A DNA stretch of 64,000 nucleotides from Acidisarcina polymorpha (GTDB taxonomy: Bacteria > Acidobacteriota > Terriglobia > Terriglobales > Acidobacteriaceae). The position numbers and the translations under genes are program-made. The notes below the pieces were generated by a model that had not been told where the DNA came from, did not search any database, and worked only from the letters and a program-made list of their open reading frames with translations. The DNA lies in NCBI RefSeq assembly GCF_003330725.1, contig NZ_CP030840.1:372001-436000 (forward strand). The letters are read 5' to 3'. This document shows, in pieces, positions 29,363 through 41,398 of the stretch (position 1 is its first letter; each line of letters begins with the position of its first letter).

Positions 29363-30130
29363 TCATGCTCCCATTTCCAGCAACGACTCTTGGACAGTCG
29401 GAGCCCTCCCATTCTCGACATCGCGGCGGCGAAGCTGATGGAAGGCGGTTAGAACCTTGTTGGCATTCGCGAGCGTTTCGATTCTCTCGACATAAGCCTC
29501 AAGCTTGGCGCCCGGAATCGCAAAGAGGGCAATGTCGTCGGTGAGAACGTCAAGGTAGGCGCGGGCTCCGCAACACCCCAGACTGAGCGCGGCGCGACCG
29601 GTATTCATGACCTGCGGTACGACCGCGCATGCCGGCCTGCCCATGGCGGGGGGGTTCTGGTTCTCGACTTGTTGCGTGGCTTCGGAGAGAATCAGGCTCT
29701 GATTTGCCAGGACAAACAGAAGCACGACGTCCGGCACAAACGGCGCTCTAGACAGCGGCGAATAGAGAACATATTCGTGCTGAGACTCCAGCACTGGAAT
29801 GGTCGCGAGATCCTGCGCTGTCACATAGCCGAGCTCGCCAAATACCTTGAGAGCATCCATGAGATCGCTTTGCTGGGCTGGAGATTCCTGAAGACGGTGA
29901 GTATAAACACCGATCGCGCAGAGACTGTGGTCCGCGGCGGATGTCGCAAACGCGGCGTCTGCCGCATCCTCCCAGAACCTGCATCCTGCGGGTACCCGGC
30001 CTGTATGTTCGCTCATGCCAGAGGGGATGAACCTCGAAAAGCCAAGCGCCACAGGCGGCTGCCGAAGCTCGAGTGCAGCCGCAAGCCTGGCCGCTAAATT
30101 GGAGAGCCTATCTTCGCTCATTGTGTGCAT
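29363..30130 (-). CDS. DUF169 family protein
   Basis: A 255-residue protein matching the DUF169 family: N-terminal LAARLAAALELRQPPVALGF, a C-R-F-W segment (GCRFWEDAA, about residues 49-57), a C-A-I-G motif after SADHSLC (about 67-75) and a C-terminal SLGCCGARAYL. Conserved Cys residues suggest a metal or cofactor site; the family's function is unknown. No signal peptide or membrane segment. Both the ATG at 30130 and one at 30121 are possible; the GGAG upstream fits either poorly. It converges with selC from the other strand. Confidence 0.8.
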   Translation of the reverse strand: MHTMSEDRLSNLAARLAAALELRQPPVALGFSRFIPSGMSEHTGRVPAGCRFWEDAADAAFATSAADHSLCAIGVYTHRLQESPAQQSDLMDALKVFGELGYVTAQDLATIPVLESQHEYVLYSPLSRAPFVPDVVLLFVLANQSLILSEATQQVENQNPPAMGRPACAVVPQVMNTGRAALSLGCCGARAYLDVLTDDIALFAIPGAKLEAYVERIETLANANKVLTAFHQLRRRDVENGRAPTVQESLLEMGA

Positions 30131-30323: not shown

Positions 30324-30842
30324 CTAGAACAACGCGCCGCTCACCTGCTCGGCAATCAATTTGGCTTTTTCCTTGAGCGCTGGACGCGCCATCAACGGGT
30401 CATGGGCCATTGTCGAACTTATGGCCACGATGAAGAGACGATCGCGCACGCGCCCGATCACCTGCTCCCCGCGCGAGTAACCCACATCGGCGGAGCAGGA
30501 CACCGCTTCATTTCCTATGGCCTTGAGAGCGGTGGGCGTTGAAGTACACAAGGATTTGTGAGACACAATGGAATTATTCACATCCTTCAATGGCTGCACC
30601 ATAATGCGCAGAGCGGAGTAGTCCTTTGCTGTCTTCGAATTGGTGAACGTGCAGATGGTCTGATCATCCGGGGCACTCTCCAGAGTGAGGGTCACCGACC
30701 CGTTTAGCACACCCGATGCGGTGGCCTCATTCAACCAGGCGCAGTGACCTTCTTCAGCATTGCATAGTGCGGAGATCATCACCAATCCCGCTAGGACTAC
30801 CCAATCAAGCGCTTCGGTCTTAAGCTTGAAGAACTTTCTCAT
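30324..30842 (-). CDS. Small secreted Cys-containing protein
   Basis: A 172-residue protein with a signal peptide (LDWVVLAGLVMISALCNA). The mature part has four Cys in pairs: one in GHCAWLNEATASGVL, one in TICTFTN, and two in SLCTSTPTAL and AVSCSADV, suited to disulphides. A C-terminal helix RPALKEKAKLIAEQVSGAL follows. I do not recognise the family, but the pattern recurs in acidobacterial secreted proteins. Its ATG overlaps the stop of the cytochrome gene (TAATG), so it is translated with it and may be an accessory to the cytochrome. Confidence 0.72.
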   Translation of the reverse strand: MRKFFKLKTEALDWVVLAGLVMISALCNAEEGHCAWLNEATASGVLNGSVTLTLESAPDDQTICTFTNSKTAKDYSALRIMVQPLKDVNNSIVSHKSLCTSTPTALKAIGNEAVSCSADVGYSRGEQVIGRVRDRLFIVAISSTMAHDPLMARPALKEKAKLIAEQVSGALF

Positions 30843-33097
30843 TACTGTGCTCCTGAGGCCGGTTCGCTCATATCGTGGACGTCATCCGTGTGCATGTGCC
30901 ATGGCACACTTTCGATCGATATCTCAGGATGTTTTCGCAGAAAGTCGAGCGAGTAAGTGGGCGCGCCCGGATCGAATTTCTTAGTAACGAACAAAGCCTG
31001 CTGCTCTGCCGCCTTATCCTTCATGCCCGCGCGCCGATAGAGGATCGAGAGGTTGTAGTGCGCGGCAAGATCGTCGGGGTCGATCCTCTGCAGCTCGACA
31101 AACTGTGCCATCGCCTCATCGTTCTTATGCTGTTGGTAGTAGGAGATGCCCAGTTCCCGGCGTGCATCGCGGGAGTCCGGGTATTGCCGGACGACCTCTC
31201 GCAGGTCGGCGATCTCGGCGTCAGAGTGACCTGCCCGCCTTTCGAGAAGCGCCGCATAGTAAAGGGCCCTGGCATTATTGGGACTTAGCTCGAGCGCCTT
31301 ATCGATGCCCGCGCGAGCTGACCCGTATTTCTCCCACTCGATCTCGGTGAGTGCGATGTTGGTGTAAGCGTCAGCATAATCGGGCCTGAGCTTTACCACT
31401 TCATTGAATGCACGGATAGCGTCCGCGTATTGCAACTGGTCGAGGTACCCGATTCCCAGGTTGTTCCACCGCATCCAGTCGGCGTTATCGCCAGGTTCAG
31501 GTTGGGTAGGCTCATTCTTTCCTATATTCAGCGACTCGGTGCGGGAGGCGATCTCAACGACCGGATATGCCGGATGGTCAGGGCCGAAGACATTGTTCAA
31601 ATAACTCTGCCGGAAGTGACGGTAGTTCACCCGCGCCGTCAACTTGATCTCACCTTGAATCTGCGCGGGTATCCGGAATTGATACCGAACCAAAGCCGAC
31701 CGTCCCGCCTGAACCGAGTTGTCATAGGCGACGGAGTGGATCGTCCAGACTTTGTGGTTGTCGACGAACTCACCCTCCAAATTCACAGGGCGGTTGGTGA
31801 AGCTGTGGGCGCGCTCGTCCAGATACCCGTCTGGCTTCAGAAAGCCGCTGTGGTAGATGTCCTTGCCGGCGGCGTCCTGCACGGTGAACTCGATCCAAGC
31901 CTCATATAGGTCGCGTACTTCGGGGATCAACGAGTGTCCGATGTTCTTATTCTGGACGACCACCAGTGCCTCGATTGTGCTATTCGGCTCCAGGCTGAAA
32001 GGGACCGACCCGAGTGGCGCAATTAGCTTTTCATCACCCGACTTCTTCAATCCCACGATATCGACATTCAGGAAGTTCCCAGCCCGCAAGAACGCGATCG
32101 TTTTCTCCAGCTGCTCGTCGAAGCCGTAATAGAATGGCACCGCGGTGTTGCCGGCGAGCCAGCGATGCGATGCGAACGTGCCATTCTTCGCCCCGTAGTC
32201 CGGCAGGACATTGGCGGCTCGCTTCATATGGCAGTTTTGACAAGTGGTAAAGTCGCCGGAATAAAACGTCAATGGGTTCCGCTTGGAAAATTTCGAGTTC
32301 TGCCATTCGTCGTATGCAGTGAACGCCCGGATGAACTTATAGTCGTTCAGGGGCGCCGGCAGATTGGCTTTGTGGCAGGCGCCGCAAAACTCCGGGGTCC
32401 GGTAGAAGCTCTGCATGACTGCTTGAGAATGGCGGTCGGTATGCTCCAATATCTCCTTGTATGGAACTTCCCCGGGGATGCGGTTTCCATTCTCATCCAC
32501 CATCACCGACGGAATTCCCATAACAAAGCCGCCGTTCCCCTTGATCGACTGCAGTTTCTGAATCGAATGGCACGTGGCGCAGGTGAGCCCATCCTGGTCC
32601 ATTTTCCGATCAACTTTGGAATCCTCAGTCAAACCGCCCGCCATGACGGCGACGGGGTTGTGGCAGCTATCGCAATGGCGCGCAAACTCAATGCCCTTGG
32701 TATTGACCAGAATATTCACGCTCGCCCGATAGAAGGGTGTGCGGAAGGCATTTGAGTGGAGAGCCTGCCGCCATTGGCTGTATGCCTCCTGGTGACAGTG
32801 GGCGCAGTAAGCGGCATTTGGAAATGCACCGGGCTGAACAAAATCGTCACCTTGCACCTGCATTGTTCCGGGGACAAACAGGTTGTCCTTGCCGAAGCGA
32901 AAGTTATAGGTCTCGCGGACCTTTGCGGCGTATTGTTTGCGTTCTTGATCGGACCGATCTTTAGCGGCTTGATATTCAGTAGATTGATCTTTAACTTGAT
33001 CCTGGCTGAACCCTGATCCGGTAGAGATCGCGAAAGCAAGCAGACCGCCGACGGCAAAAGCCGCAACTAGAGTCAAACGCTTCCTGATGTATTGCAT
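30842..33097 (-). CDS. Pentaheme cytochrome c with TPR domain
   Basis: A 751-residue exported cytochrome. A signal peptide (basic MQYIRKRL then TLVAAFAVGGLLAF) precedes five CxxCH heme-binding sites at residues 98-102, 142-146, 173-177, 238-242 and 286-290; the first (CAHCHQEAYSQW) is of the cytochrome c554 type. A beta-rich middle part (about 300-545) is followed by tandem tetratricopeptide repeats (about 560-715). The ATG at 33097 is chosen because longer in-frame starts overlap the upstream gene and lack a signal peptide. It follows the ASPIC/UnbV gene (92-nt gap) and overlaps the small secreted protein (TAATG). Periplasmic or surface electron transfer is likely; donor and acceptor are unknown. 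Confidence 0.85.
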   Translation of the reverse strand: MQYIRKRLTLVAAFAVGGLLAFAISTGSGFSQDQVKDQSTEYQAAKDRSDQERKQYAAKVRETYNFRFGKDNLFVPGTMQVQGDDFVQPGAFPNAAYCAHCHQEAYSQWRQALHSNAFRTPFYRASVNILVNTKGIEFARHCDSCHNPVAVMAGGLTEDSKVDRKMDQDGLTCATCHSIQKLQSIKGNGGFVMGIPSVMVDENGNRIPGEVPYKEILEHTDRHSQAVMQSFYRTPEFCGACHKANLPAPLNDYKFIRAFTAYDEWQNSKFSKRNPLTFYSGDFTTCQNCHMKRAANVLPDYGAKNGTFASHRWLAGNTAVPFYYGFDEQLEKTIAFLRAGNFLNVDIVGLKKSGDEKLIAPLGSVPFSLEPNSTIEALVVVQNKNIGHSLIPEVRDLYEAWIEFTVQDAAGKDIYHSGFLKPDGYLDERAHSFTNRPVNLEGEFVDNHKVWTIHSVAYDNSVQAGRSALVRYQFRIPAQIQGEIKLTARVNYRHFRQSYLNNVFGPDHPAYPVVEIASRTESLNIGKNEPTQPEPGDNADWMRWNNLGIGYLDQLQYADAIRAFNEVVKLRPDYADAYTNIALTEIEWEKYGSARAGIDKALELSPNNARALYYAALLERRAGHSDAEIADLREVVRQYPDSRDARRELGISYYQQHKNDEAMAQFVELQRIDPDDLAAHYNLSILYRRAGMKDKAAEQQALFVTKKFDPGAPTYSLDFLRKHPEISIESVPWHMHTDDVHDMSEPASGAQ

Positions 33098-33188
33098 AGG
33101 CCATCCATAGTGTTTCAGTGCCAACTCAGTTGATATCTGCAAGGCGCTGGCATCGAGCCAGCTTGAAAAGCTCCTGCAGTGCCCGCTG

Positions 33189-35216
33189 CTAATTCCCAGC
33201 CGACCGTGGTTTAATCGCGGATGCAGCGCTGTTCGCGATCGCATCGTAGACACTCGGTACCAGACCTTTGCCTTCTTCGATAACAAAAAAGCGATCGACG
33301 CTCGGAAGATTGACGTGTTCGACTAAACCACTGTTCCATCGGACCTCGACGCTGTCAACCGCGCTCGCCGGTCCCAGACCAAAATGAAGCCGCTGATCGT
33401 TGGATGATTCGAAACTACCGCCGCTCATTACGTCGCCGCGTTGCCGTATCCCGCCTGCTGCTACGTAAACAGTCGCGCCGACCGCGTCGCGAGGACTCTT
33501 TGGACCGCCAACGAGCTTGAGGCCCACCCAGTGGTTAGTGTCCGCATTGACATTGCGGAGCAAAACGGGAGTGTGATCGATGCAGTTAATAACAACGTCG
33601 ATTTTGCCGTCATTAAAGAGGTCTCCGAACGCCGCTCCACGGCTAGGGACGACGATCGCCAGTCCCGTGCCCTCGACCGCGGGAACGACTTCAAACGCCT
33701 TCCCTTTCTTGACGTTGTGGAACAACTGGGGACGTTCGGCGAAGGTGGTGCCCCAGTCATACTTGTCCACCTCCGGATAGACATGCCCGCTGACCGACAT
33801 GATGTCCTTCCATCCGTCATTGTCGTAATCGATAAACTCTGTGCCCCAACTCAAGAATGGATAGGTGACCTCGGCGATTCCCATTTGCGGGGTAATTTCG
33901 GAAAAGTTGCCGTCGCCCTCATTGCGGAAGAGGGTCTTGTAGTCGTCGGAAAACGTGGTTGTATAAAGGTCAACCCTGCCGTTATTAAGGTAGTCTCCTA
34001 CGGCCAGCCCCATCGAAGCTGTTTCACGGGCGGCCTGGTTGAGCGCAAAGCCTGAATAGAAGCTGGCGTCATCAAAGGTGCCATCGCCCTTATTGATATA
34101 GAGGTAGTTCGGGGTCGAGTCGTCGGCGACAATAAGATCTACCTTACCGTCGTTATTTACGTCAACGAAGGTAGAGGAGAATCCATAGTAGTGATGCGTA
34201 TCACTCACACCGGCTTTTTCGCTGACGTCGGTAAAGGTCCCATCCCCATTGTTGTGAAAGAGATGGTCTGGCTCGCCCTGAAGCCCGCGCGGACCGCACA
34301 TCACAGGCGCCCCCCGGTACTGGCAGAATCCAAATCCCACCGCTGCCGAACCCGGCGCCGGCGGGTGACTAACATCATAATGGATGTACCCGGGGACAAA
34401 CAGGTCGAGCTTACCGTCACCGTCATAGTCACCGAAGCTGGCGCCTGTCGACCAGTTCCCTAGTGTCACTCCGGCATGTTCGGCAACATCGGTGAAGGTG
34501 CCATCGTGGTTGTTATGATAGAGCCGGTTTTTCCCGAAATTCGACACATACAGGTCGGGCCAGCCATCGTTGTCATAGTCTCCTACCGCGACTCCGAATC
34601 CCCATCTCCCGTTTGTTACGCCAGCCTGCGCTGATACGTCCGTGAACGTGCCATCGTGGTTGTTGTGAAAGAGCGCTGCGTGCGGTGGCTCGGCCTTTCC
34701 ATCCAATGCCTCATACGTGGAGCCGTTCACTAGATAGATATCCAGCCATCCGTCGTTGTCATAATCTAGCAGCGCCACACCGGATCCGATCGTTTCCAGA
34801 ATGAAAGGCTTCTGCGGCGTGCCCATCTTATGGCGCCAACCAGTAAGGCCTGCCTTCGCGGAGATGTCCTGATAGACGATCGGTCCGTTCTTGACGAAAC
34901 CACCTGCGGTAATGGGCCGCTTCTCCGAGTCAAGAACGGGAGCGAATGTGCCCGCCGTTGCGGAGCCGCCTTGCTGCGGTGTTGCGGCGCTGCCACCGTA
35001 AAGCGGGGGTGTTGCTGGTTGCTGTCCATGCGCTGTCGGAGTTCCAATAGAGACAGTGACCCCAAGCAGGGCGATGGCTACTAAGCTCCACCGGGACGCC
35101 CGGAGCAGACGCAAGAAAATGACTGCTGAGTTCGCAAAGACGTAATTGGCCACGGCGCTAATTATGCGCGTATCCTCACTCCTTGTCTTCAGCCCCAGGG
35201 TGGACAAAATCACCAT
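33189..35216 (-). CDS. CRTAC1-type protein (FG-GAP/VCBS repeats plus ASPIC/UnbV domain)
   Basis: About 675 residues, exported. After a hydrophobic signal (LVAIALLGVTVSIGTPTAHG) come repeated VCBS/FG-GAP units, each with DYDNDGW.DLY or DVNNDGK.DL and HNNHDGTFTDV; these bind Ca2+ in a beta-propeller. The C-terminal part (about residues 560-660) is the ASPIC/UnbV domain (HWVGLKLVGG...RDAVGA, SGGSFESSNDQRLHFGLG). Such proteins often sit next to cytochrome-TPR genes, as here. The start is uncertain: ATG 35216 is used, a GTG at 35153 is equally possible, and neither has a good ribosome site. It diverges from the TPR gene at 35816 over a 599-nt gap. Confidence 0.82.
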   Translation of the reverse strand: MVILSTLGLKTRSEDTRIISAVANYVFANSAVIFLRLLRASRWSLVAIALLGVTVSIGTPTAHGQQPATPPLYGGSAATPQQGGSATAGTFAPVLDSEKRPITAGGFVKNGPIVYQDISAKAGLTGWRHKMGTPQKPFILETIGSGVALLDYDNDGWLDIYLVNGSTYEALDGKAEPPHAALFHNNHDGTFTDVSAQAGVTNGRWGFGVAVGDYDNDGWPDLYVSNFGKNRLYHNNHDGTFTDVAEHAGVTLGNWSTGASFGDYDGDGKLDLFVPGYIHYDVSHPPAPGSAAVGFGFCQYRGAPVMCGPRGLQGEPDHLFHNNGDGTFTDVSEKAGVSDTHHYYGFSSTFVDVNNDGKVDLIVADDSTPNYLYINKGDGTFDDASFYSGFALNQAARETASMGLAVGDYLNNGRVDLYTTTFSDDYKTLFRNEGDGNFSEITPQMGIAEVTYPFLSWGTEFIDYDNDGWKDIMSVSGHVYPEVDKYDWGTTFAERPQLFHNVKKGKAFEVVPAVEGTGLAIVVPSRGAAFGDLFNDGKIDVVINCIDHTPVLLRNVNADTNHWVGLKLVGGPKSPRDAVGATVYVAAGGIRQRGDVMSGGSFESSNDQRLHFGLGPASAVDSVEVRWNSGLVEHVNLPSVDRFFVIEEGKGLVPSVYDAIANSAASAIKPRSAGN

Positions 35217-35815
35217 TCGTCTACCGAAGACCCGGAAGCTGAAGCAGGGATGTTGGCGGAACTGACCTAGTTGGCAGGGCGTCGGTAATGCCCGTGGGGA
35301 ACGAAAGAGTCTCAGAAGGATCATTTGTCCGCTCGTTGCAATCCCAAGGCCTCGAGCTCCAGAAAAGACGCCTTTACTAAGGGAAGGGCCGCATAACGAT
35401 CTCGACCGAATTCTCTTCGGGCGGTCACCAATTCTTGCCTGCTGATGTCGAGAAGGGGGAGTTGCAGTATCCAACGAATGCATTTAGACCAACTTCCCTG
35501 ACCTTCGTAGACAGCACTGGCTCCTTCGGTCGCCACGAAGATCATGCGAACCCTGGGCCTGCGTTGAGGACCGGAGACCCCAATCAGGTGGATGCAAAAT
35601 GTATTCTGGACTGAGTGGAAACGGTCCTTCATGATGGAGACGCGTGGGCTGGTGTCGAATGCCCTATTGCGTCGGAGGCAAGTTTACGGGCTCGGCGGCG
35701 GTCGTTGATCGCCCAAAGGGATGAATTTCGCGTGCCAACGTATCTTTGATAGCGCCGGCATGATTTCTATTCGCTCACCCATACGCGCTTAATTTGCTGT
35801 ACGATTTTGCACACC
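35217..35815. other. Divergent intergenic region, about 600 nt
   Basis: Between the ASPIC/UnbV gene (minus) and the TPR gene (plus). Frames such as 35321-35632 on the minus strand give Arg-rich peptides without motifs. It should hold the two divergent promoters; no clear -35/-10 pair was identified. Confidence 0.4.
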
Positions 35816-36910
35816 ATGGGTTGGCTTTCTGCTTACATCGTTTGCCTGGTTCTGGGCGCTGCCTCGCAGACGTTGAGTCAGACGCAATCTCGCTCCAACC
35901 CCGCCGCGGTTAAGGCCACAGAACCGCCGAGCGTGGTGATCACCGAAGATGCCACCCAGCTGATCAATGAGGGAAATCTCAAAGAGGCGCTCGGAAAGCT
36001 GGATGCGCTGGCTGTTGACCACCCGGGACTCGTTGGTCTCGAGTATCTGAGAGGTTTCGTCTATTATCAGCAGTCTGATCTCAGGAAGGCAGAAATCGCT
36101 TTCAGGAGAGCAATTTCCCAGAATCCGCAGGATCGCGAGTCGAGGCAGATGCTGGGAATCACGCTGTATCGTCAGGGTAGACCCGCCGACGCGATTCCGG
36201 TTCTCGAGGCGGAACACTCCTCCCCGGCTATGACGAATGTCGATCCCAGCTATCTCCTCGCCCTCTGCTACATAGATGTTGATCGGTACGACGACGCCCG
36301 GCATACCCTTGCCGCCGAATACGGTTTCGTTCCTGATTCTCCCTCCGCCTACCTGCTTACCGCGCGAATCCTGCTGCGCCGTGAAAGCATGGTTCCCGCG
36401 GAGTCGACGGCTCGGAAAGCGCTCCAACTTAACCCTCGATTGCCGCTCGCGCACAAACTACTGGGCGAGATCTATCTGGCGAAGAGCGATATCAACCAGG
36501 CGATCCAGGAGTTTCAAAGCGAGCGCAACTTCAATCCTCTAGACGCCACAATCTACGAACGCCTCGGCGACGCCTATTTCCGTGCTGGGGACGACGAGCA
36601 GGCGAGAGAGTCGCTCAACCGCGCTCTCCTGCTCGATCCGCACTCTACAGGGCCTTACATCCTGCTGGGGAAAGTGCTGGTTCGAGAGCGGAATCCATTA
36701 GTTGCTACCGGGTATCTTGAGCGCGCCTTGCATATGGATCCTGGGAATTACATTACCCACTACCTGCTCGGGCAGGCGTACCACGCGTCCGGGCGCACGC
36801 AAGACGCCTCTCGCGAATTCGAGAAGTCAGAGCAACTGCGATTTGGAGCAGATTCCTCGTCCGCACAAGCCCAATCACCCTCCCCCTATGAGGGCAAGTT
36901 GCCGAAGTAA
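35816..36910 (+). CDS. Exported TPR protein
   Basis: A 364-residue protein with a signal peptide (WLSAYIVCLVLGAASQTLS) and then about seven tetratricopeptide repeats over residues 40-345, recognisable from repeated A...Y.....A...L.RAL..DP units. The last 20 residues are Ser/Gln/Pro-rich. TPRs scaffold protein complexes; periplasmic location fits a partner of the divergent cytochrome/ASPIC-UnbV unit, but this is inference. ATG 35816 is preferred over TTG 35807. Confidence 0.82.
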   Translation: MGWLSAYIVCLVLGAASQTLSQTQSRSNPAAVKATEPPSVVITEDATQLINEGNLKEALGKLDALAVDHPGLVGLEYLRGFVYYQQSDLRKAEIAFRRAISQNPQDRESRQMLGITLYRQGRPADAIPVLEAEHSSPAMTNVDPSYLLALCYIDVDRYDDARHTLAAEYGFVPDSPSAYLLTARILLRRESMVPAESTARKALQLNPRLPLAHKLLGEIYLAKSDINQAIQEFQSERNFNPLDATIYERLGDAYFRAGDDEQARESLNRALLLDPHSTGPYILLGKVLVRERNPLVATGYLERALHMDPGNYITHYLLGQAYHASGRTQDASREFEKSEQLRFGADSSSAQAQSPSPYEGKLPK

Positions 36911-37560: not shown

Positions 37561-37570
37561 TAAACGAGGT

Positions 37571-37764
37571 TGCTTCGAGCGGCTCCCCACCATCGGGAAT
37601 CAGCAGAGTCGGCACGAACGCCCGCGGGAGAGAAATTGTTATCAGTAGACGACACTATTCAGTTGATTCGCATAGGCGAACGGCCCGCGGGCACAAACGG
37701 GTCCGTGCCATCAGCCACCGGTGCATGCTCTACCGATTTGGCAGATGAGCCTTGGTTGTTTGAC
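37571..37764 (+). promoter_or_regulatory. nadA leader with tandem motif, possible riboswitch
   Basis: The stretch upstream of nadA repeats the sequence CGAACG(G)CCCGCGGG at 37615-37628 and 37677-37691; the first copy is preceded and the second followed by GGCACRAACG, and the second ends in a hairpin (GGCAC 37690-37694 / GTGCC 37705-37709). The element could pair as CUUC (37573-37576) with GGAG (37627-37630). NAD+-I (nadA) riboswitches, with two similar tandem domains, are known before nadA only in acidobacteria, so one is expected here. The conserved core I recall for that motif is not clearly matched, so the call rests on position and repetition. Confidence 0.3.
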
Positions 37765-38982
37765 ATGCAGGAGCCCGGTTATGGCCCTGGGGCGTCCATG
37801 CATGACACTCTGCCGCCCAGTTCGCCGCGCCAGGGCTTTCTTCCGCAGGAATATCGACAGGCCTCGAAGGGCGAACTCGATCAGCGGATCCGCACAGCCA
37901 AGGCTGCCCTGGGGGAGCGGTTGGTGATCCTGGGCCATTTCTACCAGCGCGACGAAGTCGTGCAATATGCCGACTTTGTCGGTGACTCCTTCCAACTCGC
38001 GAACGCCGCCAGAACCCGTCCGTTGGCCGAGTTCATCGTTTTCTGCGGCGTGCACTTCATGGCCGAAACCGCCGACATGCTTTCACGCCCCGATCAGGCC
38101 GTCGTTCTGCCGAACCTGGCAGCCGGCTGTTCGATGGCGGACATGGCCGACCTTGATTCCGTCAAGGACTGCTGGGAGGAGCTCACAGAGGTTCTTGGGG
38201 ACGCGCCAGACGGAGCAGGCCGCCAGCCGGTGGTCCCCGTAACTTATATGAACTCCTCGGCAGCCCTGAAAGGCTTCTGCGGAGAGCACGGGGGCATTGT
38301 CTGCACCTCGTCGAACGCGACCGAAGTGCTCAAGTGGGCTCTGGCTCGCGGTCAGCGCGCCCTCTTCTTTCCCGACCAGCACCTTGGCCGCAACACCGGT
38401 AAAGCGATCGGCATCCCGCTTGAGCAAATGCCGCTTTGGGATCCCAGCCGGCAGCTAGGCGGTTCAGACGCATTGACGCTGCAGAGGTCCCGCGTCATCC
38501 TTTGGCACGGTTTTTGCTCGGTGCATAAGCGCTTCACCGTGAATCAGATCGCAGCCGCGCGTCAGCGCTTCCCTGAAGTTCGCGTCATTGTGCACCCGGA
38601 GTGCCCAATGCCCGTCGTAGATGCGGCGGATGCCTCGGGATCGACAGACTACATTACCAAGGCGATCGCCGCTGCCCCCACCGGCAGTACGTTTGCCATC
38701 GGAACTGAGATCAACCTGGTGCAGCGGCTTGCCAACCAGTATCCGCAGCATAAAATCTTCTGTCTGGACTCAGTCGTTTGCCCCTGCTCGACCATGTACC
38801 GCATCCATCCGAGCTATCTGGCCTGGGTGCTCGAAGCGCTCAATCGTGGTGAGGTGCTGAATCGCATCACGGTGCCGGAGCAGATCGCCAAGCCCTCGCG
38901 CATCGCCCTGGAACGCATGCTTAGCCTCAAACCGGAGTCGAAACCGGAATCCAGGATCGAGAGCCCGGTGGCATCCCTATGA
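37765..38982 (+). CDS. nadA: Quinolinate synthase
   Basis: A 405-residue 4Fe-4S enzyme that condenses iminoaspartate with dihydroxyacetone phosphate to quinolinate, the second step of de novo NAD synthesis. The three cluster Cys are in AAGCSMADM (C122), HGFCSVHKRF (C251) and CSTMYRIHP (C341); substrate motifs LGHFYQRDEVV and HFMAETADML are intact. The ATG at 37765 gives a protein of normal start (MQEPGYGPG); the frame stays open 65 codons further up (to 37570) but that part looks like leader RNA rather than protein. The stop overlaps the nadB start (ATGA). Confidence 0.95.
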   Translation: MQEPGYGPGASMHDTLPPSSPRQGFLPQEYRQASKGELDQRIRTAKAALGERLVILGHFYQRDEVVQYADFVGDSFQLANAARTRPLAEFIVFCGVHFMAETADMLSRPDQAVVLPNLAAGCSMADMADLDSVKDCWEELTEVLGDAPDGAGRQPVVPVTYMNSSAALKGFCGEHGGIVCTSSNATEVLKWALARGQRALFFPDQHLGRNTGKAIGIPLEQMPLWDPSRQLGGSDALTLQRSRVILWHGFCSVHKRFTVNQIAAARQRFPEVRVIVHPECPMPVVDAADASGSTDYITKAIAAAPTGSTFAIGTEINLVQRLANQYPQHKIFCLDSVVCPCSTMYRIHPSYLAWVLEALNRGEVLNRITVPEQIAKPSRIALERMLSLKPESKPESRIESPVASL

Positions 38983-40547
38983 AGCGCATCCTTGTCGTCG
39001 GGAGCGGCATCGCCGGTCTCATCGCTGCTCTGGAGCTTAGCCGCAAGCACGCGGTCACCCTGGTCACCAAGGCGCGGCTTGAAGACAGCAACACCCGCTT
39101 CGCGCAGGGCGGCATCGCTGCGGCGATGTTCTCTGACGACAGCGTCGCTGAGCACATCGCTGACACGCTGCGCGCCGGCGCCGGCCTGTGCGATCCGCAG
39201 GCTGTGGAAGTGCTTTGCTCCGAGGGGCCGCGGCGCATTCGCGATCTCGTAAGGCTCGGGGTTGCCTTTGACCAGCACAATGGAGAGCTGGCGCGAGGAC
39301 TCGAGGCCGCTCACACCCGCGCTCGAGTTCTGCACGCCGGCGGAGACTCCACTGGACTTAACATAGAGCTGGCGTTGGCCCGCGCTGTCCGCGCGGCCGG
39401 TATCCCGGTGATGGAACACACCTTCGCTCGCGACCTTATCCTGCGTAAGGAACGGGTTGCAGGCCTTGACGTGTTGGAAGCCGATGGCGCCCTGCATGAA
39501 CTTTACGCTGACGCTGTAGTGCTGGCCAGTGGCGGCGCAGGCCAACTTTATTCGCACACCACCAATCCATCGGTCGCTACCGGGGATGGCCTCGCCATGG
39601 CACTCCGTGCGGGCGCGCAGCTTACCGATCTGGAGTTCTACCAGTTCCACCCGACAGCGCTGGCAGGCCCGGATACCTTCCTTATCTCGGAAGCGGTTCG
39701 CGGCGATGGAGCGGTCTTGCTCGACGCCAATGGGCGCCGTTTTATGCAGCACATTCATGCCGGCGCCGAACTCGCCCCGCGCGATGTGGTAGCCCGAGGG
39801 ATCGCCCGCCAGATGGCCGCGCAAAATGGCCTGCCGGTGATGCTCGACGCGACGAGCCTAGGTGCATCGTTCCTTGCCCGACGCTTTCCTACCATCGACG
39901 CCGCCTGCCGGACTCGCGGCCTCGACTGGTCCGGGACACCGATACCAGTGACCCCCGCAGCCCACTATTGGATGGGCGGCGTGCGCACAGATATTTGGGG
40001 ACGCACTTCCCTGCCAGGTCTCTTCGCTGTCGGCGAAGTCGCCTGCACTGGCGTTCACGGAGCCAACCGCCTCGCTTCCAATTCCCTGCTAGAAAGCCTA
40101 GTCTTCGCCTGGCGATGCGCGGAACTATTGCTTAAGGAAGATGTCAACGAGATAAAGTCCGCACCTTTTTCGCCCTTCATCACCGGAGCGAAGGAAGCCG
40201 CTGTGACATTTCCGCTGTCACCACATCTCTCCGCAAACAACAGCGAACCAGTAAGCCGGCAGGCGCTGCAAAGCCTGATGTGGAATGCAGCTGGAATTGA
40301 ACGAACTGCTTCCAGTCTCGGCGCTTGCGCAAAGCAGTTGGATCGATGGCGTCCGGGAGGAGGCACGATACACGACCTCGAAACCGCCAACCTGCTCGCG
40401 CTTGCAAGAGTGATGGTCGCTGCTGCTCTGGCACGGCGGGAATCGCGCGGCGCGCATTTCAGGGAAGATTTTCCTGAAACCTCCACCGGCTTTCAGCACT
40501 CCTTGGTCGCCTCACAGGAAGTTGCGAACACCACGACCACATGCTGA
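38979..40547 (+). CDS. nadB: L-aspartate oxidase
   Basis: A 522-residue FAD enzyme oxidising L-aspartate to iminoaspartate, which is passed to NadA. The N-terminal FAD-binding motif VVGSGIAGLIAALE (about residues 6-19), the block NTRFAQGGIAAAM (about 41-53), and the active-site motif DLEFYQFHPTAL (about 213-224) and the segment HYWMGG (about 329-334) are as in the family. Start overlaps the nadA stop by 4 nt (ATGA), and its end overlaps nadC by 7 nt, so the three are translated as one unit. Confidence 0.95.
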   Translation: MKRILVVGSGIAGLIAALELSRKHAVTLVTKARLEDSNTRFAQGGIAAAMFSDDSVAEHIADTLRAGAGLCDPQAVEVLCSEGPRRIRDLVRLGVAFDQHNGELARGLEAAHTRARVLHAGGDSTGLNIELALARAVRAAGIPVMEHTFARDLILRKERVAGLDVLEADGALHELYADAVVLASGGAGQLYSHTTNPSVATGDGLAMALRAGAQLTDLEFYQFHPTALAGPDTFLISEAVRGDGAVLLDANGRRFMQHIHAGAELAPRDVVARGIARQMAAQNGLPVMLDATSLGASFLARRFPTIDAACRTRGLDWSGTPIPVTPAAHYWMGGVRTDIWGRTSLPGLFAVGEVACTGVHGANRLASNSLLESLVFAWRCAELLLKEDVNEIKSAPFSPFITGAKEAAVTFPLSPHLSANNSEPVSRQALQSLMWNAAGIERTASSLGACAKQLDRWRPGGGTIHDLETANLLALARVMVAAALARRESRGAHFREDFPETSTGFQHSLVASQEVANTTTTC

Positions 40548-41398
40548 TCCGGCCGGGCACCGAAGCCATCCAGCGTCTTGTCCGCATAGCGCAGGAGGAA
40601 GACGCTCCGTGGGGCGACCTTACCTCGCAATCCCTCATTTCGGCGTCGGCACGCGTAAGTGCGCGCCTGGTAGCGCGGGAACCCGGCGTACTTAGCGGAG
40701 AAGATGTTTTTGCCGCCGCCATGTCGCTCACCGACTCCGCCATCGACACGCGCTTCCATCTGCATGACGCAGAGTCTTTCCCGGCAGGAGCAGTGCTCGC
40801 CACAGTGGATGGACCGGCCCAAGCCATCCTGCAGGCAGAACGTGTCGCTCTCAACTTCGTTCAGCGCATGTCCGGCATCGCAACCCAGACGGCGCAATAT
40901 GTAACAGCCGTTGCAGGGACACGGGCGCGGATCGTCGACACGCGCAAGACCACACCGGGTCTCCGTCTTATCGAACGTTATGCCGTCCGCTGCGGAGGCG
41001 GCCATAATCACCGCTACTCCCTTTCCGATGCCGTGATGGTCAAGGACAATCATCTTGCCATCCTGGCAGCCACGGGAGCCGTGAATGTGACGGAAGCACT
41101 GCAATCCATGCGTACCCGTCTTTCCCACACCACGCACGTCGAAGTAGAGGTCGACCGGCCTGAGCAGATCGAGGCAGTCCTCGCCGCAGGTGTCGATACA
41201 ATCCTGCTCGACAACTTCACCACAGCACAGCTCTCTTCGGCCGTAGCAGAGATTGCAGGCCGTGTGCTGGTTGAGGCTAGCGGCGGGGTTACGCTCGCCG
41301 GCATTCGCGAGATCGCCGAGACCGGAGTAGACATTATCTCGGTCGGAGCGCTGACTCACAACATCCGGTCCCTGGATCTCGGACTCGACATCGTCTGA
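40541..41398 (+). CDS. nadC: Nicotinate-nucleotide pyrophosphorylase (quinolinate phosphoribosyltransferase)
   Basis: A 285-residue enzyme that turns quinolinate and PRPP into nicotinate mononucleotide and CO2. Active-site segments ERVALNFVQRMSGIAT (about 100-115), DTRKTTPGLR (133-142), GGGHNHR (152-158) and KDNH (168-171) are intact, and the C-terminal phosphate-binding region has ASGGVTL. Length is normal. It completes the overlapping nadABC operon; nothing else follows before the convergent GH36 gene. Confidence 0.96.
   Translation: MLIRPGTEAIQRLVRIAQEEDAPWGDLTSQSLISASARVSARLVAREPGVLSGEDVFAAAMSLTDSAIDTRFHLHDAESFPAGAVLATVDGPAQAILQAERVALNFVQRMSGIATQTAQYVTAVAGTRARIVDTRKTTPGLRLIERYAVRCGGGHNHRYSLSDAVMVKDNHLAILAATGAVNVTEALQSMRTRLSHTTHVEVEVDRPEQIEAVLAAGVDTILLDNFTTAQLSSAVAEIAGRVLVEASGGVTLAGIREIAETGVDIISVGALTHNIRSLDLGLDIV

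Follow-up and report, generated by a model that had tools for sequence, protein, structure and literature searches.

In a window of 64,000 nucleotides of Acidisarcina polymorpha (contig NZ_CP030840.1, positions 372,001 to 436,000), we analyzed three genes encoding a secreted propeller protein (CRT), a pentaheme cytochrome with a TPR tail (CYT), and a small secreted protein (SMALL), together with a TPR gene that diverges from them. The coordinates re-derived from the DNA placed CRT, CYT, and SMALL in this order on the minus strand at 33189-35216, 30842-33097, and 30324-30842, in agreement with the original prediction. The tight spacing that it described was also observed, except that the distance from the CRT stop codon to the ATG of CYT was 91 nt and not 92 nt; CYT and SMALL overlap in the sequence TAATG as described, and AGGAG precedes the overlap. 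Pfam domains, CXXCH motifs, and conserved Cys residues bore out the proposed identities, i.e., a Ca-propeller, a five-heme TPR cytochrome, and a Cys protein. The features are as follows.

33189..35216, minus strand: CRT, secreted FG-GAP/ASPIC-UnbV (CRTAC1-type) propeller protein (Pfam; start codon uncertain)
30842..33097, minus strand: CYT, with signal-peptide-like N-terminus, pentaheme domain, Ig-like domain, and TPR tail
32792..32806, minus strand: heme motif 1, CAHCH (translation; His conserved in 28/28 diverse sequences, as in motifs 2 to 5)
32660..32674, minus strand: heme motif 2, CDSCH (translation; 28/28)
32567..32581, minus strand: heme motif 3, CATCH (translation; 28/28)
32372..32386, minus strand: heme motif 4, CGACH (translation; 28/28)
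32228..32242, minus strand: heme motif 5, CQNCH (translation; 28/28)
31511..32083, minus strand: Ig-like beta-sandwich behind the heme domain, approximate (residues 301-491 of the AlphaFold2 (AF2) model match beta-sandwich chains)
30974..31480, minus strand: TPR tail of CYT, approximate (Pfam TPR_16, 1.6e-14; TPR_1; TPR_2)
30890..30913, minus strand: tail motif ESVPWHMH, putative metal or heme ligand (pattern conservation)
30324..30842, minus strand: SMALL, secreted four-Cys protein with a predicted PsbP/Mog1/PknH-sensor-like fold (alignment, AF2)
35807..36910, plus strand: TPR protein with signal-like N-terminus (Pfam), divergent in the window

CRT contained six FG-GAP_3 stretches (6.3e-52) and a C-terminal UnbV_ASPIC domain (2.3e-18), both past the Pfam cut-off, and matched Cartilage acidic protein 1 among the PDB sequences (9etn, E 1.5e-12). 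Because its orthologues measure approximately 640 amino acids, the true start codon is suggested to lie downstream of 35216, possibly near 35123. No twin-arginine motif was found in the window CRT by a scan with RRxF[LIVM].

Pfam assigned Cytochrome_C554 and TPR to CYT, and its five CXXCH motifs are visible both in the translation and in the alignment. The AF2 model of the CYT core (pLDDT 85.1) matched the pentaheme cytochrome c552 structure 5ze8 with a Z of 22.9 (338 residues aligned, 3.5 Å, 19% identity), followed by a runner-up row at Z 9.0; the rows of this table lie mostly over the Ig-like domain (residues 301-491), and families missing there are not thereby excluded. Likewise, the CYT profile matched 5ze8 among the PDB sequences (E 9e-6) and, remotely, the selenoprotein MccSep (E 0.0044). 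The NCBIfam ExtKL model NF040886 gave 20.4 bits (E 1.6e-4), which is below its equivalog cut-off of 250 bits, indicating that CYT is related to ExtKL without being its orthologue. Nine His residues were invariant in all 28 sequences, Shinella and Nitratiruptor homologues included, namely one in each of the five heme motifs and four more, at CYT (P0002) residues 115, 224, 312, and 389. Provided that each of these four ligates a heme, one of the five hemes would have no conserved distal His. In addition, a tail motif ending in HxH was present in 82/84 close and 12/15 divergent TPR-bearing CYTs and in a CYT copy on a Granulicella plasmid, and in none of 50 other TPR genes; it was not found in five short CYTs (class 2, described below) or in the homologues from Shinella, Nitratiruptor, and Aeromonas.

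The four Cys residues of SMALL are conserved in the alignment. SMALL had no match at E 1 in Pfam or NCBIfam, nor in a PDB profile search at E 1. Its AF2 model (pLDDT 94.1) resembled Dip2269, the PknH sensor, TiME, and PsbP (3v7b, Z 12.0; 4esq, Z 11.6; 7cu8, Z 10.9; and 2xb3, Z 9.2, respectively), with a best Foldseek E of only 3.5e-3. When 80 genomes of the family were searched with a SMALL profile, 11 matches were obtained in 9 genomes, and all 11 lay, as compared by eye, within about 3 kb of a CYT gene or inside it, one of them in the same 957-residue frame as CYT. Thus, SMALL was not seen without CYT in these genomes by this profile, which was built from CYT-linked copies and which distant unlinked forms could escape.

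Conservation and probable partner exchange among relatives

Relatives of CYT were collected by scanning the contigs of 84,980 genomes, each from a different species, and the best 80 of 249 stretches were kept. In 78 of these 80 loci, CRT adjoined CYT with the same orientation, which indicates linkage beyond chance; in one exception (L060) the contig stops 462 bases past CYT, and in the other (L073) only a shorter and more distant CRT frame was present. SMALL was adjacent in 63 loci; three more loci had it fused to CYT, two had it at some other place, and 12 gave no SMALL, several of the 12 being at a contig end. The fusions are encoded by open reading frames (ORFs) of 919-937 amino acids, in which SMALL follows the C-terminal tail of CYT. 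The A. polymorpha genome itself carries a second, reordered locus with TPR, CYT (69% identical), CRT, and SMALL (32%). The comparison with relatives, proposed as a check of the original prediction, thus did not refute it: the three genes stay together among relatives, some species have a fusion, and this genome has two copies of the set.

Two arrangements were distinguished, type A with the order CRT-CYT-SMALL as in the window, and type B with CYT-CRT-SMALL, which a TPR gene often precedes. In a FastTree tree of CRT, type A (37 sequences) and type B (37) each formed a single clade, and each grouped with other paralogues of the A. polymorpha genome instead of with the other type. The twin-arginine motif was found in 41/41 type B and 0/33 type A CRTs when the 80 loci, the window, and one further locus (L009) were scanned with RRxF[LIVM]; a narrower scan of the first 110 residues, in ORFs that possibly start too early, gave 41/41 and 1/33, respectively. 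The FastTree tree of CYT required four switches between the types with the unclassified L060 and L073 excluded, and a quick tree required five with both counted as type B, L073 adding to the count by standing alone within a type A group. From these four to five switches, we infer that the cytochromes swapped the type of their CRT partner repeatedly while keeping a CRT.

The orthologue of the window TPR gene was located directly downstream of SMALL in five loci (L039-L043) and beside SMALL in another (L048). The diverging TPR gene is present as predicted, at 35807-36910 on the plus strand, and, in view of these six loci, belongs closer to the unit than had been supposed. In the flanks of 85 loci (the 80, the window, L009, and L032-L034), TPR genes were found in 45, TonB-dependent-looking receptors in 14, and the next cluster in 6. 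A monoheme cytochrome c gene occupies the place where SMALL would stand on a Granulicella tundricola plasmid (L166:9230-9571); it follows CYT there and was rejected as a part of the module, as flanking ORFs with CXXCH numbered only 8 in the 85 loci.

The A. polymorpha genome has 23 ASPIC places, and a TPR domain lay within 1.5 kb of 13 of these 23 CRT regions, compared with a mean of 0.81 and a maximum of 6 in 5000 random placements. This count was obtained with 150 of 514 TPR candidates scored and with approximate CRT spans; the 23 regions include both cytochrome loci and two TPR-CRT frames, and the null model places clustered CRTs independently. The two TPR-CRT frames are natural fusions of 1242 and 1318 amino acids (G000:C1:498120-500081 and C1:2079284-2081977) carrying both TPR and FG-GAP/ASPIC domains. 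Furthermore, one CRT paralogue lies outside both cytochrome loci (L011, G000:C1:2721620-2723524) and shares 68% identity with the CRT of the window.

Promoter and terminator scans gave no excess over shuffled DNA (3 versus 3.0 and 5 versus 5.4, respectively), so that the separate promoter of the divergent TPR gene in the original prediction stays putative. The two scanned genes downstream of SMALL belong to the Pfam families DUF169 and HD; the DUF169/COG2043 protein (E 1.5e-22) is encoded at 29363-30130 on the same strand just downstream of SMALL. Past the divergent TPR gene, positions 37570-41398 contain a run that we take to resemble nadA, nadB, and nadC.

Divergent and non-acidobacterial homologues

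A profile of the heme and Ig-like domains detected CYT in 118/396 sampled genomes of the phylum (E 1e-30) and in 49/80 genomes of the family. The claim that such propellers recur with heme-TPR proteins in acidobacteria therefore held, though SMALL occurred in only 9/80 family genomes. An earlier query of 41 genomes with the single CYT sequence gave at least four with matches at E 1e-60 and was discarded as too low an estimate of the distribution; probably, the 26 scored places were taken up by TPR candidates, and the single sequence was less sensitive.

Among 20 divergent loci picked by hand, CRT directly followed CYT in 19; the exception (L148) had a 706-residue ORF without a Pfam match. A hydropathy scan indicated at least three N-terminal membrane segments in 19/20 divergent CYTs. 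Two groups of these fused membrane domains (A5 and A6, five sequences each) are related to each other (hhalign, 92%) and share four invariant His residues in pairs 18 and 14 residues apart, a pattern that would correspond to a diheme b-type domain. Since a PDB profile search with the fused domains gave nothing convincing and single-sequence hhalign comparisons were weak, the b-type reading draws on the His pattern of these two of the three groups. In five loci (class 2, L161-L165), CYT is short and lacks TPR, and the longer CRT partner bears TPR instead, as Pfam showed for three of the CRTs (L161, L162, and L163) and one CYT (L163); the class-2 CYTs have four CXXCH motifs and one CX4CH motif.

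Outside the acidobacteria, homologues were found in six records of a plasmid collection (two from Nitratiruptor at the same place), of which five were examined. Identity to the CYT core was 26-27% over 93% for Shinella HZN7 and PSBB067, 25% over 87% for Aeromonas caviae, and 27% over 72% for Nitratiruptor YY08-14, and in these four of the five records the FTR1 iron permease gene adjoins the homologue. FTR1 was not seen in the Sulfurovum record. Shinella HZN7 and Nitratiruptor YY08-14 share the order imelysin, DUF4405-type membrane protein, cytochrome, and FTR1, and the cytochrome of these operons is homologous to CYT (26% over 483 columns, E 5e-45); imelysin and ferritin lie near the Nitratiruptor homologue. 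PMC3143127 connects imelysin and Ftr1-type EfeU with the uptake of iron, and PMC9230427 names an Idiomarina "Cytochrome c/FTR1 family iron permease". The Shinella/Nitratiruptor-type operons, with the cytochrome between the DUF4405-type membrane gene and FTR1, suggest that electrons pass in those bacteria from quinol to an acceptor in the periplasm, for instance Fe(III). In A. caviae, the homologue is part of a 989-residue frame (L168:5372-8341) directly before FTR1, with about 550 residues in front of the cytochrome part; this stretch gave a weak beta-propeller match (NCBIfam TIGR03866, E 0.0016), and a propeller-pentaheme fusion would be a precedent.

FTR1 was examined as a possible partner in acidobacteria and rejected. 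It had no match in the genome of the window, and it was detected in 6/20 divergent genomes, always on another contig than the CYT locus examined. The 72 flanking ORFs of the divergent loci gave 131 families, of which the 25 most frequent included neither FTR1 nor imelysin, no genome search having been aimed at imelysin. As FTR1 is absent or on other contigs, the iron link does not carry over as such to acidobacteria.

Proposed electron-transfer complex and its alternatives

Taken together, we lean, by a modest preference, toward the view that the trio and the position-shifting TPR gene encode an exported electron-transfer complex in which CRT docks on TPR. The module is most likely an envelope machine delivering electrons to a target beyond the inner membrane. 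This reading supports and sharpens the original prediction, in which an electron-transfer or oxidative complex was put forward as possible. CRT and TPR would be a structural pair: TPR is on CRT instead of CYT in class 2, TPR domains lie near CRT regions, and a CRT is retained through the changes of partner type.

The analysis showed the gene content and order, the fusions, the co-occurrence, the predicted folds, and the conserved ligands, whereas complex formation, the direction of electron flow, and the substrate are what we infer in the following scheme. CYT, a c552/ExtKL-family cytochrome, would be soluble or bound peripherally; its five hemes would provide a wire spanning the heme domain, and its Ig-like domain and TPR tail would serve as a docking arm. 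The CRT propeller, with Ca-binding-type loops, would bind this arm as an outer scaffold or a target-recognition part, and SMALL would be an optional accessory subunit seated where CYT ends in its TPR. Some divergent relatives may receive electrons from quinol through the fused membrane domain with two His pairs, which would resemble a diheme b cytochrome, and the window version would require an unlinked donor. Electrons would leave to an acceptor beyond the inner membrane, probably a metal ion or another oxidant.

Several observations weigh against this scheme. CYT is patchy, being below the threshold in 278/396 genomes, and it often occurs without SMALL, which was found in 0/20 divergent loci and not in 71/80 family genomes. 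The third group of fused membrane domains (nine sequences) has only two invariant His residues, the DUF4405 score of the fused domain is under the Pfam cut-off, and single-sequence hhalign against the Shinella and Nitratiruptor membrane proteins gave only 17% and 0.9%. In the window operon, no quinone-linked or membrane heme gene was recognized, and no porin, the partner of an MtrCAB-type conduit, was recognized by eye in the recurrent neighbor clusters, where no porin model was run. The distribution of FTR1 described above points in the same direction.

The five hemes set against four further invariant His residues would also fit a catalytic multiheme enzyme complex, somewhat like the hydrazine-synthase (HZS)-like clusters, that acts at the heme lacking a conserved distal His. 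The remote MccSep match is in line with such a complex, and so are CRTAC1-family genes in HZS-like clusters with c554 domains of other bacteria (PMC12758564). However, no HZS subunit was recognized by eye in the locus, and the fifth ligand may be a residue other than His or come from another chain; we consider this explanation unlikely.

A quinol-driven reductase of ferric iron or another metal that supplies metal for import, the metal being handled by CRT and the HxH tail, would explain the FTR1 genes adjoining the homologues, the imelysin and ferritin genes in Nitratiruptor, and the conservation of the HxH tail. We gave this explanation less weight after the FTR1 search of acidobacterial genomes came out against it. 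Moreover, FTR1 was missing from the common flanking families and from the Sulfurovum record, and the class-2 CYTs and the Shinella, Nitratiruptor, and Aeromonas homologues do not have the HxH tail, so that we now regard it as distinctly improbable.

By analogy with the archaeal nanowire AvECN, to which the c552 family is reported to be kin (PMC11976967), CYT might polymerize to give a conductive filament outside the cell, coated or tethered by CRT; this is very doubtful, since the large TPR tail and the co-encoded propeller suggest a discrete complex. Equally hard to credit is conservation of the neighbors through inheritance only, with no physical complex: gene order does pass down among close relatives, but partner exchange, fusions, changes of order, and retention in divergent families speak against it.

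The exported electron-transfer complex can be extended to a wider reading, which we put forward tentatively, slightly more so since the FTR1 search, and would not expect to hold in full. In this extension, acidobacteria would share a phylum-wide electron outlet, in which a nanowire-related and partly quinol-linked CYT is docked through TPR on interchangeable CRTAC1 propellers, one with a twin-arginine motif and one without, has a PsbP-like subunit in some species, and reduces metals or other acceptors beyond the inner membrane. Acidobacteria abound in soil, and such an outlet, if true, would assign a function to the many CRTAC1-TPR pairs that their genomes contain. In any case, the module ties one CRTAC1/ASPIC protein to an electron-transfer family that has a solved relative, and the role of CRT is thereby open to heme, pull-down, and reduction assays.

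Comparison with known systems

The module was not described in the literature searched, which left many subscription papers outside, and neither was a stated role of bacterial CRTAC1/ASPIC proteins found there; the cytochrome family itself is already known. SMALL shares its predicted fold with the PknH sensor and PsbP/Mog1-like proteins, and differs from them in having no sequence match and in being tied or fused to a cytochrome.

The HZS-like clusters resemble the present locus in that a CRTAC1-family gene stands beside genes for multiheme c554-domain proteins, and Paludibaculum fermentans falls within that clade according to PMC12758564. The module here has instead a pentaheme c552 fold, and no HZS subunit was recognized by eye among the window ORFs, where no search with an HZS model was made.

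The imelysin-DUF4405-type-cytochrome-FTR1 operons encode a homologous pentaheme and Ig-like protein, and their His-rich membrane partner resembles the acidobacterial fused domain. In contrast to those operons, the acidobacterial CYT stands beside CRT, TPR, and SMALL, in the window's case in a genome without FTR1.

The closest known relatives are the Thermochromatium tepidum cytochrome c552 (5ze8) and the PHC family (ExtKL, Gsu2801, and the sPHC/lPHC of cable bacteria), which have in common with CYT the five hemes, the fold of the heme domain, the Ig-like domain, and a remote sequence match. In PMC11976967, c552 is grouped with ExtKL and the pentaheme cytochromes of cable bacteria and linked to AvECN. 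Compared with this family, CYT has a TPR tail with HxH in addition and is accompanied by CRT and SMALL; in divergent relatives it is also fused to a membrane domain.

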